This document shows, piece after piece, positions 14,968-28,963 of a stretch of 64,000 nt of DNA. The notes under the pieces are model-generated. The model made no database searches, had not been told where the DNA came from, and saw only the letters and a program-made list of their open reading frames with translations. Source of the stretch: an uncultured Nitrospira sp. Its GTDB lineage: Bacteria > Nitrospirota > Nitrospiria > Nitrospirales > Nitrospiraceae. Made by a program: the position numbers and the translations under genes. Position 1 is the first letter of the stretch, and each line of letters begins with the position of its first letter. The stretch is from contig CABVRX010000007.1 of NCBI GenBank assembly GCA_902500825.1, positions 62,001 through 126,000 of the forward strand, read 5' to 3'.

Positions 14968-17223
14968 TTATCCATCCTCTATCAGAAACTCAATGCCTCC
15001 GGTGGTTACATCGTACATCGCCCCGACAATGGCGATGCGCCGTTCTTGAACCAGCTTGTCGAGCGTCCGACTTTGTTTGCGCATCTCCTTGACGACACGG
15101 AAGACATTCTCTCTGGCCACAGAATCCACGATCGCCACTGTGTCAGGCGCGGACGGCTCAGCAGTCATCTGCATCGAGACACTCTCTGCCGGACACCGGA
15201 TCTCATTGATAATGGAGTCGAAATGCTGACACCCTGTCGTTTCAGCCACAGTTTGAGGCAACTTCAAGAGTTTGACGGCAGCGGATACGGCCCCACATCT
15301 CGTGTGTCCTATCACGACGATGAGTTTTGCCCCTGCCACAGCGCAGCCGAATTCAGCGCTGGCGAGTACCTGTCCACTCGTGACGTTTCCCGCGATCCGA
15401 ATGCTAAAGATATCTCCCATCCCGAGGTCGAAAATTAACTCAACCGGTGTGCGGGAATCGATGCAGCTCAGTGCTACGGCTAAAGGATGCTGCGCCTCGG
15501 CCGTGGCCCTCACCTGGCGACTAAAATCTCTGGTAAGTCGCCGTCCGGCGCGCACCCTTTTATGCCCCTCCTTTAGAAGATTGAGGACCTGTTGCGGAGT
15601 GATGGTGTCTTGGATCTCGCGGGTCGAATAATCGACATATTGGATCTCATCCTCAAAGTTATGTTCACCTTGAAAGCCGACAAGGCTCACCTCCACGCCA
15701 TGGGCTGGTCCGGTTTGTTCCTTGAAGTCTCGAATCAAGCCCAGCACATCCGGATCGATGTAGTCCGTGTTCCGCGCATCTAGGAGGACGTGGCCATTGC
15801 GCGGCACTTCCTTCAGTACTTTGGAGAGGGCGGCGCGATTTAAAAAGCTCACCTGATTCGCCAATTCGACATGCACCACATCACCGCCCAAGTACTTTTC
15901 CACAAAGCGGTGTACTGGCCGACGCATGTTGCTGTTCAGGATGAAACCGATGGCCACGACGAGGCCAAGCACGATACCAATCAAGAGATCGGTGAATACA
16001 ATCGCCGTCACGGTCGCCGCAAACGGGATGAACTGATAGCGGCCCTGATTCCACATTTGTTTGACGAGAGCCGGACTGGCCAGTTTAACGCCGGTCACTA
16101 TCAAAATTGCCGCCAGACAGGATAACGGAATCATGTTCAGCCAGGTCGGTATGAGCGGAATACTGACCAACAGCAATGTGCCATGAATGATCGTAGCCAG
16201 TTTTGTTTTGGCACCTGCGTTGACGTTCACAGAACCACGGATGATGACTGAAGTGACCGGAATTCCGCCGACCAATCCACACACCATGTTTCCAATACCT
16301 TGGGCCAATAACTCTTGGCTCGGCGGTGAAGTCCGTTGCTGTAAATCAAGCCGGTCGACCGCCTTTAAATTGAGCAAGGTTTCGAGAGATGCCACGATGG
16401 CGAGGGTCATCGCAGCTGTATAGAGGGTCGGATTCGTCCACTGCGAGAAGTCCGGTCGTGGAAGGAGCCCGAAGAGCTCTCCCACACTACTCGTCACGGG
16501 CACCTGAACCAAATGGGTCGGCTCAATGACCCATGGCTCGCCAAGTTGCTCGAACCATAAGCCCGCTCCGATGCCGAACAATACTACTGCGACAGGAGCG
16601 GGAAAGAGAGACGTTTTCAGCGACTTCCAGTTGTCCCAGAGCACGAGTAGAGCAATAGAGATCAGACCGACTATTGCCGCCCCCAGTTGAATGTCTCCAA
16701 ACATACGAATGAGTTCGGAGAATGTCGTCTCCAAGTCCGGTTGGATGAAGGACATTTCACCTTCCGGGTCAGGATCGTGTCCCATAAGATGGGGAATTTG
16801 TTTCAAGATGATAATGACCCCGATGGCTGCCAACAGACCCTTGATCACACTGGTTGGAAAGAATTCGGATATGAACCCTCGTTTAGCGACACCGAGGCCG
16901 ATTTGGATCATCCCGGCAAGAATCAAGGCCATCAGAAACGCTGAAAATGATTCAAGCGAGAGGATTTGAGCGGCCACGACTGCCGATAACCCAGCGGCGG
17001 GACCGCTGACGCTGGTGTGCGACCCACTGAACAGTCCTACCAAGATGCCGCCGATAATGCCGGCCAACAACCCAGACAGCAATGGAGCACCGGAAGCGAG
17101 CGCAATCCCCAGGCACAAAGGGAGAGCGACGAAGAATACAACGAGGCCAGCCTTGATATCGGTTAGAACGGTGGCCGAGGAGACACCAGTCGTTGAAGAC
17201 ATGATAGCTTCTGATTCTTTCAT
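14968..17223 (-). CDS. SulP anion/bicarbonate transporter fused to STAS and beta-carbonic anhydrase, ~751 aa
   Basis: The N-terminal ~430 residues are a SulP transporter (LTDIKAGLVVFFVALPLCLGIA; many hydrophobic helices; GSHTSVSGPAAGLSAVV). A STAS-like domain follows (RAALSKVLKEVPRNGHVLLDARNTDYIDPDVLGL). The last ~180 residues are a beta-carbonic anhydrase with zinc ligands in SCIDSRTP (Cys and Asp of the CxDxR motif) and GHTRCGA (HxxC). Such fusions are known; the likely job is coupling HCO3- (or sulfate) movement to CO2/HCO3- interconversion. The frame is open to GTG 17244; ATGs are at 17223 and 17202, and none has a clear Shine-Dalgarno. It is the only large gene of the inserted segment. 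Confidence 0.85.
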   Translation of the reverse strand: MKESEAIMSSTTGVSSATVLTDIKAGLVVFFVALPLCLGIALASGAPLLSGLLAGIIGGILVGLFSGSHTSVSGPAAGLSAVVAAQILSLESFSAFLMALILAGMIQIGLGVAKRGFISEFFPTSVIKGLLAAIGVIIILKQIPHLMGHDPDPEGEMSFIQPDLETTFSELIRMFGDIQLGAAIVGLISIALLVLWDNWKSLKTSLFPAPVAVVLFGIGAGLWFEQLGEPWVIEPTHLVQVPVTSSVGELFGLLPRPDFSQWTNPTLYTAAMTLAIVASLETLLNLKAVDRLDLQQRTSPPSQELLAQGIGNMVCGLVGGIPVTSVIIRGSVNVNAGAKTKLATIIHGTLLLVSIPLIPTWLNMIPLSCLAAILIVTGVKLASPALVKQMWNQGRYQFIPFAATVTAIVFTDLLIGIVLGLVVAIGFILNSNMRRPVHRFVEKYLGGDVVHVELANQVSFLNRAALSKVLKEVPRNGHVLLDARNTDYIDPDVLGLIRDFKEQTGPAHGVEVSLVGFQGEHNFEDEIQYVDYSTREIQDTITPQQVLNLLKEGHKRVRAGRRLTRDFSRQVRATAEAQHPLAVALSCIDSRTPVELIFDLGMGDIFSIRIAGNVTSGQVLASAEFGCAVAGAKLIVVIGHTRCGAVSAAVKLLKLPQTVAETTGCQHFDSIINEIRCPAESVSMQMTAEPSAPDTVAIVDSVARENVFRVVKEMRKQSRTLDKLVQERRIAIVGAMYDVTTGGIEFLIEDG

Positions 17224-17402
17224 AAACAGGCCATTAGCGAACACACCTCTGGAATCGAGTTCGAATCTTTATTTTCAAACATGTTGGAGCACCATGAGCC
17301 TACCTCCATAGGCTGAAGCTGATCACCTATGCGGAAAACCACGTCCGTCAAATCCTCGCAACTAGTCACTACCATAGCGAAGCTCTACAGCCGGAGTTGG
17401 CT

Positions 17403-19226: not shown

Positions 19227-20573
19227 CTATGAACCCGGAGGACAAATCGTCTGTCTTGTATCCCGTCCCGACCCTTTGGTGATTTCAATTCGTGCGACAC
19301 CCTTCACATTGGCACAAAGATCGCCAAGTCCTGGTGTCACCAATCGAAATGGGCCACCTTTCGTGTCAGGCAGTGGGGCTCCATCAAGCTCGTAGACAAG
19401 GACTCCGTGTTCTCTGGCTTGCTCAAGCGTGAGGCAGGCGGAATATTTTCCGTCCGAAGCGTGAAAGGCCACGTGATCCGCCTCAATGGCCAATGCTGGA
19501 ATATCGAGCAGCCCCTTCAACCGAATTCCCCATCCCTTCATGCCTGGCATGACCGTCGAGACATCCACATGATGCTCAGCCGGCAATGACGCGATCGCCG
19601 CACGATCGAAGGACACCGGCTGAACCACAGCGCCCTCTATTCGAACGCGCCCCTGACCGGTCTGCTCCTTGACCGTGATGGCTTTGATCATGGCCGTGAA
19701 AGCCTCATTCACCGGAGTCGGAATCCCCAGCTTACGCCCCTGTTCCACGATATACCCGTTCAGGTAATCGATTTCCGTCGGACGCCCCGCCTTCCAATCG
19801 TCATACATGGAGGTATGGATGTCGCGAATTTCCTGTGAGGCCTTCACCACTCGTTCCGCCATGTCCGGAGGCAAGGGTACCTTAAGCGTCGCCGCAATGG
19901 CCGCGACTTCTCCGACAATCTGCCGGATGACACCCATCATCTCAGAATGATCAAGTGCCTTCGCCACGCGGTCATCGATCAGCACCGTAATCGGGTTGAA
20001 GACACAGTTCCAACACATCTTTTCCCACTTCGTGCGGCGAATGTCCTTTGACAAATGACAAGGAATGCCAGCCGAGGTGAATAGGTCACGGATACCGAGA
20101 AGGCGCTCGCTTTCATACCCCATCAGTTCGCCGATCGACACAGTCCCTTTTTTATAATGGTCGATCACGCCGGGCTCAACGATCTTGGAATAGATATAGG
20201 CGACGCCGCCGACCACACAATCCCGTTGGATTTTTGCGAGAAGACGGTCTTCGGTATCGATTCCATTCTGCAAGGTGAGGATCACGGTCTTTTCGGTCAG
20301 CACCGGTTCGATCTGGTTCAGGACTTCGTCAAGATCATACGCTTTCACGCCGAGCACAATAAGATCCGGTCGAGGAAGCTGGCGCGCATCCGAGGCTGCT
20401 TGCGGCCTGACTGTAAACGTCCCGTCCACGCTGCGGATCGTCAATCCCTTTTGCTTCACCGCCGCCAGCGTGTTCGGCCGCAGCAAGAACGACACGTCGG
20501 GATTGCTCTTGGCCAATCGCGCTCCGAAAAACCCGCCGACTGAGCCGGCACCGACCATCAAGATCTGTTTCAT
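19227..20573 (-). CDS. Ketopantoate reductase-like (PanE/ApbA) domain fused to a molybdopterin-oxidoreductase-like domain, 448 aa
   Basis: Residues about 1-310 are a 2-dehydropantoate 2-reductase: NAD(P)-binding GAGSVGGFFG near the N-terminus, a KAYDLDEVL motif, and KWEKMCWNCVFNPITVL. Residues about 320-440 resemble the sulfite-oxidase-type molybdopterin domain (VAFHASDGKYSACLTLEQA, VLVYELDGAPLPDTKGGPFRLVTPG). Where such enzymes have a Moco-binding Cys (CVTGW-like), this protein reads DVSTVMPGMKGWG without Cys, so the second domain may bind a ligand rather than catalyse. The N-terminal part may make pantoate or act on another 2-oxo acid. Confidence 0.75.
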   Translation of the reverse strand: MKQILMVGAGSVGGFFGARLAKSNPDVSFLLRPNTLAAVKQKGLTIRSVDGTFTVRPQAASDARQLPRPDLIVLGVKAYDLDEVLNQIEPVLTEKTVILTLQNGIDTEDRLLAKIQRDCVVGGVAYIYSKIVEPGVIDHYKKGTVSIGELMGYESERLLGIRDLFTSAGIPCHLSKDIRRTKWEKMCWNCVFNPITVLIDDRVAKALDHSEMMGVIRQIVGEVAAIAATLKVPLPPDMAERVVKASQEIRDIHTSMYDDWKAGRPTEIDYLNGYIVEQGRKLGIPTPVNEAFTAMIKAITVKEQTGQGRVRIEGAVVQPVSFDRAAIASLPAEHHVDVSTVMPGMKGWGIRLKGLLDIPALAIEADHVAFHASDGKYSACLTLEQAREHGVLVYELDGAPLPDTKGGPFRLVTPGLGDLCANVKGVARIEITKGSGRDTRQTICPPGS

Positions 20574-20664: not shown

Positions 20665-21399
20665 ATGGCGCCGGGATCTGATCTTGGGATTGTGAGACAA
20701 CAACTCTCTGCTGCGCAAAGCATAACCGCGCTTACCGGCGCCGGAATCTCGGCTGACAGCGGTGTGCCGACGTTTCGTGGAACGGACGGCTTGTGGCGCA
20801 ATTACCGAGCAGAAGATCTCGCCACACCCCAAGCATTTGAGCGAGACCCTCGCCTCGTGTGGGAGTGGTACAACTGGCGGCGCGAGCTGATCGCAAAAAA
20901 ACAGCCGAACGACGCTCACAAAGCCCTCGTCGAACTCGAGCGCCGCTCTTCGGACTTTTGGCTGATTACGCAAAATGTGGATGGGCTGCATCGAGACGCC
21001 GGCTCACAGAAACTCTCCGAGATTCACGGCAACATCTGGAACGCTCGCTGCACCGGCTGTGGCGTAGTGGAACACAATCACGATGTGCCGATTTCTATCC
21101 TCCCGTCCTGTCTCCGTTGCGGGTCGTTGCTCAGACCTCATATCGTCTGGTTCGGAGAATCCTTGTCTACTGATGATCTCGACGACTGCTCCAGGGCGCT
21201 CAAACATTGCGACGTCTTGCTCGTCATCGGCACATCGGGCGTCGTCTACCCGGCCGCAGGGTTTGCAACCCTCGCCAAAGAGGCCGGGGCATTCGTCGCC
21301 GAAATCAACCTTGATCCCACTCCGCAATCGGCGGTGGTCGACATCGCACTGCACGGCCGTGCGAAAGATCTCGTGCCGTTACTTCTCCAATCGATCTAG
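20665..21399 (+). CDS. cobB: NAD-dependent protein deacylase, sirtuin class III (CobB)
   Basis: Removes acyl groups from lysine using NAD+. GAGISADSGVPTFRG (from residue 25), TQNVDGLH (102-109) and catalytic His121 are present. A zinc site is formed by C129/C132 and C149/C152. Tyr69 and Arg72 (YNWR) match the Tyr-xx-Arg pair that gives SIRT5/CobB enzymes affinity for succinyl- and malonyl-lysine. AGGAG lies about twelve bases upstream of the ATG. The 3' end overlaps the convergent HAD gene by 21 bases. Confidence 0.93.
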   Translation: MAPGSDLGIVRQQLSAAQSITALTGAGISADSGVPTFRGTDGLWRNYRAEDLATPQAFERDPRLVWEWYNWRRELIAKKQPNDAHKALVELERRSSDFWLITQNVDGLHRDAGSQKLSEIHGNIWNARCTGCGVVEHNHDVPISILPSCLRCGSLLRPHIVWFGESLSTDDLDDCSRALKHCDVLLVIGTSGVVYPAAGFATLAKEAGAFVAEINLDPTPQSAVVDIALHGRAKDLVPLLLQSI

Positions 21400-22104
21400 A
21401 AGCGGGAACAACTCCTCCAAGCTCTTGATGGCCAGAACCCCCGCTCCGTGGTGTTTTCCATCACGGTCCAACAGAACGGCGTGAAGCCCGGCTTTCGTCG
21501 CCCCTTCCATGTCGTCTCGCAGACTATCGCCGATATGCAAAGCTTCATCCGGATCAACGGCATGCTTTTCCAAGGCGATTTGAAAGATTTGAGGAGCAGG
21601 CTTCGCGGCTTGGGCCAAACTCGAGATGGTCACGGTGTCGAATGCATCATCAATCCCAAGTCCACGCATCACGGGAAAGAGACGGGAATCAAAATTCGAG
21701 ATGATCCCGAGCTCCAGATCCAATGCTTTGAGTCGAGTCAAGGTAGAAGCGGTTTCAGGAAACAAACGCCATGATCGATGGTCCTCAAACACACGGAACA
21801 CTTGATCGAAGAACTCGTCAAATCGCTCGAACATACCGACACGATAAAAGACATGATGAACGATGTCGAACCACCACAGACGTTCATTCTGCTTGATTCG
21901 TGCCGGGTCAGCCACGGCGAAGACCGGCGGTGGGGCTTCGCAGAACGCTCGACTGAACGCTTGCTTGATTGCCACCAACGAGTCCGGTTTCTGTGGAAAG
22001 CCGAATTCAACCGCATGTCGAAGATAAATCTCAGCGACCGACCCCTGCACGTGAAAGAGAGTATCGGCTGCATCGAAAAATACCACTCGTAACGACGAAC
22101 TCAT
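21379..22104 (-). CDS. HAD-superfamily (subclass IA) hydrolase, 241 aa
   Basis: Motif I FFDAADTLF near the N-terminus, motif II SNFDSRL, motif III around KPAPQIF and motif IV HIGDSLRDDMEGATKAG, with a helical cap between I and II. This is a cytosolic phosphatase-like enzyme. In motif I the second Asp is in DAADT, as expected for a phosphatase. Substrate unknown. The gene ends inside the 3' end of cobB. Confidence 0.85.
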   Translation of the reverse strand: MSSSLRVVFFDAADTLFHVQGSVAEIYLRHAVEFGFPQKPDSLVAIKQAFSRAFCEAPPPVFAVADPARIKQNERLWWFDIVHHVFYRVGMFERFDEFFDQVFRVFEDHRSWRLFPETASTLTRLKALDLELGIISNFDSRLFPVMRGLGIDDAFDTVTISSLAQAAKPAPQIFQIALEKHAVDPDEALHIGDSLRDDMEGATKAGLHAVLLDRDGKHHGAGVLAIKSLEELFPLLDRLEK

Positions 22105-28161: not shown

Positions 28162-28167
28162 TAGAAT
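28162..28167 (+). promoter_or_regulatory. -10 box TAGAAT placed for a leaderless coaX message
   Basis: TAGAAT ends seven bases before ATG 28175, and no Shine-Dalgarno precedes that ATG. The -35 region is weak. Confidence 0.4.
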
Positions 28168-28174
28168 GAGTCCG

Positions 28175-28963
28175 ATGCTCTTAGCGATCGACATCGGAAA
28201 TACCAACGTTGTCGCAGGAATCTTTGACGGATCGACTCTGTTGACACATTGGCGGTTGGCGACCGATCCCAAGACTACCGCTGATGAGTACGGCGTCCTC
28301 TGTCTCAGCCTCATGACCCGAGACGGGCGCGTCCCTCAGCAAATCACCGGTGCGATCGTGTCCAGTGTCGTTCCCGCCCTCACGGACACGTTTGAATCGA
28401 TGATTGAAACGTCTTTCGGCTGCATCCCCATCACCGTCTCTTCCGATATGGACACAGGCCTCATACTGAAATACTCGAACCCAAAAGAGATCGGAAGCGA
28501 TCGTATCGTGAATGCGGCAGCGGCCTATGAAAAGTTTCATCGCGATCTTATCATCGTCGATTTCGGCACGGCGACGACGTTTTGCGCGGTCAACCGAGAT
28601 GGAGAATATCTTGGAGGCGTGATCGCACCCGGTCTGACTATTTCGGCGGACGCCCTGTTTACACGGGCCGCAAAGTTGAGCAAAGTCGAGCTCGCCCGGC
28701 CTAAGACGGTCATAGGAACCGATACCGCCGGCAGTATTCAGTCGGGGCTCATCTTTGGCTATGCCGGTCTCGTGGACACCCTGGTTCAGCGGATGGAAAC
28801 GGAAATGGGGCGCACGTCATATGTAGTCGCCACGGGTGGCTTGGCCATGGTCATCGCGCCGGAGGCGCGATCGATTCAACATATCGAACCGTTTTTGACT
28901 CTGTATGGGCTTGAACTCCTCTATCGTCGTGCCCAGGGCACGAGCCTGACGCACTGGGTCTAG
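28175..28963 (+). CDS. coaX: Type III pantothenate kinase
   Basis: First step of CoA synthesis, phosphorylating pantothenate. The N-terminal phosphate motif DIGNTNVVAG, IVDFGTATTFCAVN in the middle, and APGLTISADALF with a late ATGGLA are typical of CoaX (ASKHA fold). An ATG at 28166 is also in frame, but homologues begin M-L-L-AIDIGNTN, matching 28175. With coaE this covers both ends of the CoA pathway. Confidence 0.95.
   Translation: MLLAIDIGNTNVVAGIFDGSTLLTHWRLATDPKTTADEYGVLCLSLMTRDGRVPQQITGAIVSSVVPALTDTFESMIETSFGCIPITVSSDMDTGLILKYSNPKEIGSDRIVNAAAAYEKFHRDLIIVDFGTATTFCAVNRDGEYLGGVIAPGLTISADALFTRAAKLSKVELARPKTVIGTDTAGSIQSGLIFGYAGLVDTLVQRMETEMGRTSYVVATGGLAMVIAPEARSIQHIEPFLTLYGLELLYRRAQGTSLTHWV

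Follow-up and report, generated by a model that had tools for sequence, protein, structure and literature searches.

PruR is a Cys-less protein of the sulfite oxidase (SUOX) fold that binds reduced pterins and signals to a regulatory partner (PMC13259868). As represented by the A. tumefaciens PruR-DcpA pathway and the structures 7KOS, 7KOU, 7KOM, 7KP2 and 7RKB, it is a small single domain that resides in the periplasm, is paired with DcpA or DTB regulators and is not fused to any enzyme. Sulfite oxidase-family Moco enzymes (SoxC, 2XTS; SorA, 2BLF; the T. thermophilus protein, 6Y0K; MsrP, 1XDQ) share this fold, but possess both the Mo-ligating cysteine and a dimerisation domain. Ketopantoate reductases (KPR) of the PanE/ApbA family (TIGR00745; 3HWR, 3HN2, 5AYV, 1KS9) form a third point of reference, and those solved members that matched the protein described here end at about 290–335 residues.

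We have analyzed a 64,000-nucleotide stretch of DNA, referred to below as the window, whose nearest relatives, at most 92% identical in the protein under study, identify the source genome as a Nitrospira species. The original prediction had noted a PanE/ApbA reductase that continues into a SUOX-like domain, and the two are indeed encoded in one frame of 448 residues.

Results

Architecture of the fused gene and its neighbourhood

The features of the gene are as follows:
19227 to 20573, minus strand: fused gene, 448 residues, ketopantoate reductase and SUOX/PruR-like domain in a single open frame
19674 to 20573, minus strand: N-terminal ketopantoate reductase, residues 1–300 (Pfam, TIGR00745, invariant residues)
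19254 to 19661, minus strand: C-terminal SUOX-fold domain without the Mo-ligating Cys, residues ~305–440 (Pfam, alignments, predicted model)
19530 to 19562, minus strand: residues 338–348 (VSTVMPGMKGW), where Moco paralogues have the loop with the Mo-ligating Cys
19344 to 19346, minus strand: Arg410 of the GGPxRL motif, found in Moco paralogues too
19302 to 19316, minus strand: family motif C420-A-N-V-K424, whose Cys and Lys never vary among fused or stand-alone members

Pfam assigns ApbA to residues 4–150 (7e-38), ApbA_C to residues 177–299 (8e-36) and Oxidored_molyb (PF00174, the Pfam domain that sulfite oxidase-type Moco enzymes also have) to residues 349–433 (5e-14; profile positions 73–162 of 169). 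Only the second half of the PF00174 domain is covered, owing to a shortening of the loop in which the paralogues carry the Mo-ligating cysteine; two stand-alone relatives of the C-terminal domain match the profile almost in full.

Three further genes provide the context:
20665 to 21399, plus strand: Sir2-family gene, conserved neighbour
21379 to 22104, minus strand: HAD-family hydrolase, conserved neighbour
28166 to 28963, plus strand: type III pantothenate kinase (CoaX), a later step of the same pathway

PADLOC gave no defence-system match for either the fusion or the Sir2 neighbour. The window also contains, at 14971–17244 on the minus strand, a permease of the SulP family that continues into a carbonic anhydrase domain (Sulfate_transp 28–410, Pro_CA 589–750).

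The reductase half

The N-terminal part matches TIGR00745 over its full length, scoring 271.6 bits where the cut-off is 141, and matches the fold of solved KPRs at an E value of 6e-30, with the CoA-bound 5ayv among the top matches. N103, K185, N189, N193, S255 and E267 are invariant in 32 fused sequences, and K185 and E267, mapped by motif, are the residues that we take to be the catalytic pair equivalent to Lys176 and Glu256 of E. coli. With the expected catalytic residues kept, residues 1–300 constitute by sequence a complete ketopantoate reductase, for which NADPH-dependent reduction of ketopantoate is predicted, and what sets the protein apart from PanE/ApbA is the additional C-terminal domain. 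It is the sole ApbA_C protein in its genome, where PanB, PanC and CoaX are all encoded as well. Note that part of family f2 carries an insert of some 40–50 residues near residue 150 of the reductase (L035 904–2352, L036 1501–2949, L037 1501–2946).

The C-terminal domain: fold and pocket

That the C-terminal part would fold like SUOX was borne out by structure prediction. Modelled by itself with AlphaFold, the domain reached a mean pLDDT of 87 and a pTM of 0.82, and its best structural neighbour is SoxC (2xts), with a Z score of 17.5 over 139 residues. The PruR proteins 7kos, 7kou, 7rkb, 7kom and 7kp2 follow at Z 13.0–14.7 over 118–121 residues, corresponding to most of the PruR length, and the first unrelated folds appear at Z 6.2. 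As judged from this model the domain has the SUOX fold. With respect to the arrangement of the two domains the pTM was 0.69. The sequence profile gave 8e-13 for 6y0k versus 1.7e-9 for 7kom, the PruR of V. vulnificus.

The missing molybdopterin-binding cysteine of the original prediction was confirmed throughout, as alignments show the Mo-ligating residue to be absent from the window protein and from every family sequence. At its position the Moco paralogues of the same genome read VSTLMC, DFHCV and RHDCV, whereas the window protein reads VSTVMPGMKG. The domain is not free of cysteine, however: Cys420 lies in a different loop, one residue longer than in the Moco paralogues and preceding the VK motif, and is invariant in 17 of 17 diverse family members. 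The same 17 sequences also retain A379, Tyr394, G398, P400, the GGP triplet 406–408, Arg410, Leu411, P414, Lys424 and Ile429, and within the Nitrospirales D337, D366, H367, D374 and Arg440 are additionally invariant. Arg410 of the GxPxR motif and Lys424 of the VK motif are common to the domain and the Moco paralogues; in Moco enzymes of the sulfite oxidase family these two motifs presumably contact molybdopterin. With the Mo ligand lost, the domain has most likely moved past Moco catalysis. A dimerisation domain such as those enzymes possess is absent as well.

The fused domain resembles PruR in size and topology, and residue 378, Tyr or Phe in nearly all family members, falls on Tyr104 of the PruR NDY motif. 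The Trp that PruR has at the cysteine position is replaced by T, V or M, however, and in an alignment made by eye PruR Trp160 coincides with Lys424, so that neither Trp is found in the window domain. PruR in turn lacks Arg410, Lys424 and the C-[AS]-N-[VI]-K features of the window family. The fused protein has no secretion signal, its N-terminus being the Rossmann start, and no DcpA or DTB gene lies beside the fusion, where the neighbours are the Sir2 and HAD genes. By its defining residues the domain is not a PruR, and it would work like one at most in outline; judged from these positions, its pocket falls between those of the Moco enzymes and PruR.

Distribution of the fusion

A search for other proteins with both domains retrieved 109 loci with the fusion in one frame, among which are those from two complete chromosomes, N. 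moscoviensis (L083) and N. defluvii (L107), although some genomes entered this count twice via two collections. A sequencing or assembly artefact, split in relatives, had been considered as a source of the fusion from the outset and is ruled out by these loci. The fusion is thus real and conserved; the domain does occur as a separate gene, but in the sister orders. In a phylum sample of 395 genomes we found the domain in 121 Nitrospirales genomes and PanE in 118, and 117 of the latter (counted across two tables) also have the domain. It was not found in the other classes sampled, and in the sister-order and other-class genomes that were read, PanE is unfused and mostly 312–356 residues long, with one frame of 400. 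The matches listed from one scan of a general genome collection all came from Nitrospira and near kin. Viral carriers of the fusion were searched for and none were found, while plasmid searches gave weak matches only, all below 60% identity and mostly at 29–35%; the two that were inspected, from a haloarchaeon and from Ensifer, both retain the Mo cysteine. Text searches of the literature, with most subscription papers outside their coverage, returned no description of this architecture.

Both halves evolve under purifying selection, with a median dN/dS of 0.08 for the reductase and 0.11 for the domain, which rules out that the domain is a decaying appendage. The single PanE-bearing exception, the draft genome G028, encodes a PanE of 319 residues (L122 4150–5109) whose final residues correspond to the last few of the fused domain, as though the rest had been excised in frame, and this could be an assembly error. 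The frame breaks or stops seen in a few MAG copies (L046, L078, L033, G292) were taken as draft errors or lesions of single genomes. Apparent cases of a domain without PanE in G056 and G349, and of a split in G322, lie at contig ends and were excluded from the loss count. The domain does stand as a complete separate gene in G030 and G036, neither of which has PanE, and G185, also without PanE, encodes a His-tailed relative.

Evolutionary history

Among sister orders within the class (families f7, f8 and f10) the separate gene encodes 172–199 residues, and all seven aligned stand-alone homologues from these orders carry a His-rich C-terminal tail resembling HGHSHDHDH. Such tails (HGHSHDHDHDH), as in metal-binding proteins, were observed at L161 230–808, L162 5117–5701, L163 4907–5440, L165 4720–5286, L166 4706–5263, L167 4606–5202 and L168 4597–5112. 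At L161 and L166 the domain gene lies 2.1–2.3 kb from PanE, and there the unfused PanE adjoins the same HAD gene that is seen near the Nitrospira fusion.

In a tree of the reductase half all fused sequences and the PanE of G028 group together across one branch (97% SH-aLRT), with the unfused PanE of the sister orders as neighbours. The domain tree separates fused from His-tailed forms (99/100) and places G036 within its fused congeners (98/92) and G030, with weak support, near another fused group (82/75). A single fusion at the base of the Nitrospirales fits both trees, and from the placement of G036 and G030 PanE was lost from the fusion at least once, probably twice, with the domain retained. 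As it persists without PanE, the domain must have a role of its own, be it activity or binding.

A haloarchaeal stand-alone relative has both the Mo cysteine and a cysteine in the loop of the Cys420 type. This one sequence suggests that the Nitrospirota family may descend from small stand-alone Moco proteins and subsequently lost the Mo ligand. The haloarchaeal gene, encoding a small SUOX-like protein, is plasmid-borne (L190 1450–1953) and is followed by a DUF2249 gene.

Discussion

The original prediction had offered two roles for the second domain, substrate or cofactor sensing or else a new redox coupling. The latter, if it is to run through a Mo centre, is unsupported now that the Mo ligand is gone. 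Sensing is the better half of that guess, because the closest solved small Cys-less proteins of the fold, the PruR proteins, are pterin sensors (PMC13259868).

The best explanation that we can offer, and we do so tentatively, is that a PruR-like pterin-binding domain tunes the ketopantoate reductase. On this view a cytoplasmic KPR gained a C-terminal ligand-binding domain by a single fusion in the Nitrospirales ancestor, with a small stand-alone SUOX-fold protein as the source. What was once the molybdopterin pocket would most likely accommodate a pterin, either folate-type or a tetrahydropterin, as in PruR, and the reductase would respond to the ligand state of the domain. The fold match to PruR, the Tyr or Phe at residue 378, Arg410 and Lys424, the completeness of the reductase half and the purifying selection on both halves count in favour of this proposal. 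The KPR substrate is the product of PanB, an enzyme that uses 5,10-methylene-tetrahydrofolate, so that a pterin would be a natural upstream signal, and among ligands it seems to fit best with both the fold and the fused enzyme. Pantoate and CoA synthesis would thereby be tied to the pterin/folate pool on which PanB draws. The specific form of this proposal, a KPR gated by reduced pterin or folate such that production of CoA precursors tracks the one-carbon donor of the preceding step, is more doubtful. Regulation of KPR as the sole function is contradicted by the three genomes that keep the domain or its relative without PanE. Counting against a PruR-like reading are Arg410, Lys424 and the sequence scores, all of which place the domain nearer to the Moco enzymes, and also the two absent Trp residues and the missing secretion signal.

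Arg410 and Lys424 are also an argument for the main alternative, in which the domain holds molybdopterin or Moco with no thiolate from the protein and carries, stores or senses Moco, KPR being joined to it for control or simply for co-expression. The Mo cysteine still present in the haloarchaeal relative points in this direction, but no member of the family has the ligand. MoaE was present in 26 of 26 genomes tested; it is also found in genomes without the domain, however, so that the co-occurrence does not discriminate. A MoaD-MoaE fusion gene (ThiS and MoaE, 226 residues; L168 5825–6502, minus strand) lies two genes from the His-tailed domain of G185, although in this one genome only. We consider this alternative unlikely, if the most serious of the rivals.

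Still less probably, the domain serves a structural purpose or oligomerisation, or is a small protein in its own right for which the link to KPR is no more than history. The domain stands alone in the sister orders, has outlived PanE within the Nitrospirales and is dispensed with by the PanE of G028, as would be expected in this case. On the other hand, its loss from PanE is seen in that one draft genome only, and purifying selection, together with charged and Cys residues that never vary in the loops once used for the cofactor, points to a ligand or active site.

The domain might finally provide feedback by sensing CoA or another thiol, as a redox switch that acts through the invariant Cys420 and supplies a control that type III pantothenate kinase lacks. 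CoaX, present in 16 of 16 genomes tested, is generally insensitive to CoA, which counts in favour of such a role. For feedback on KPR itself there is a precedent in the archaeal enzyme of T. kodakarensis, which is inhibited by CoA (PMC6650551) and whose CoA-bound structure is the 5ayv found among the fold matches. This is nevertheless the least probable reading, as genomes lacking the domain or lacking PanE have CoaX just the same and the domain survives the loss of PanE; moreover, CoA binding is not known to us for any SUOX-fold protein.

Returning to the pterin-binding domain that we tentatively favour, a pterin-gated KPR would, if true, be to our knowledge the first cytoplasmic, enzyme-linked pterin sensor of the SUOX/PruR fold. 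Binding of a pterin would take sensing of the PruR kind out of the periplasm and into primary metabolism, in a phylum for which our searches found no description of it. In nitrite oxidisers it would further couple folate directly to CoA synthesis. As domain and enzyme are encoded by two genes in the sister orders, about 2 kb apart in two genomes, the fusion may also hint at the function of the His-tailed family.
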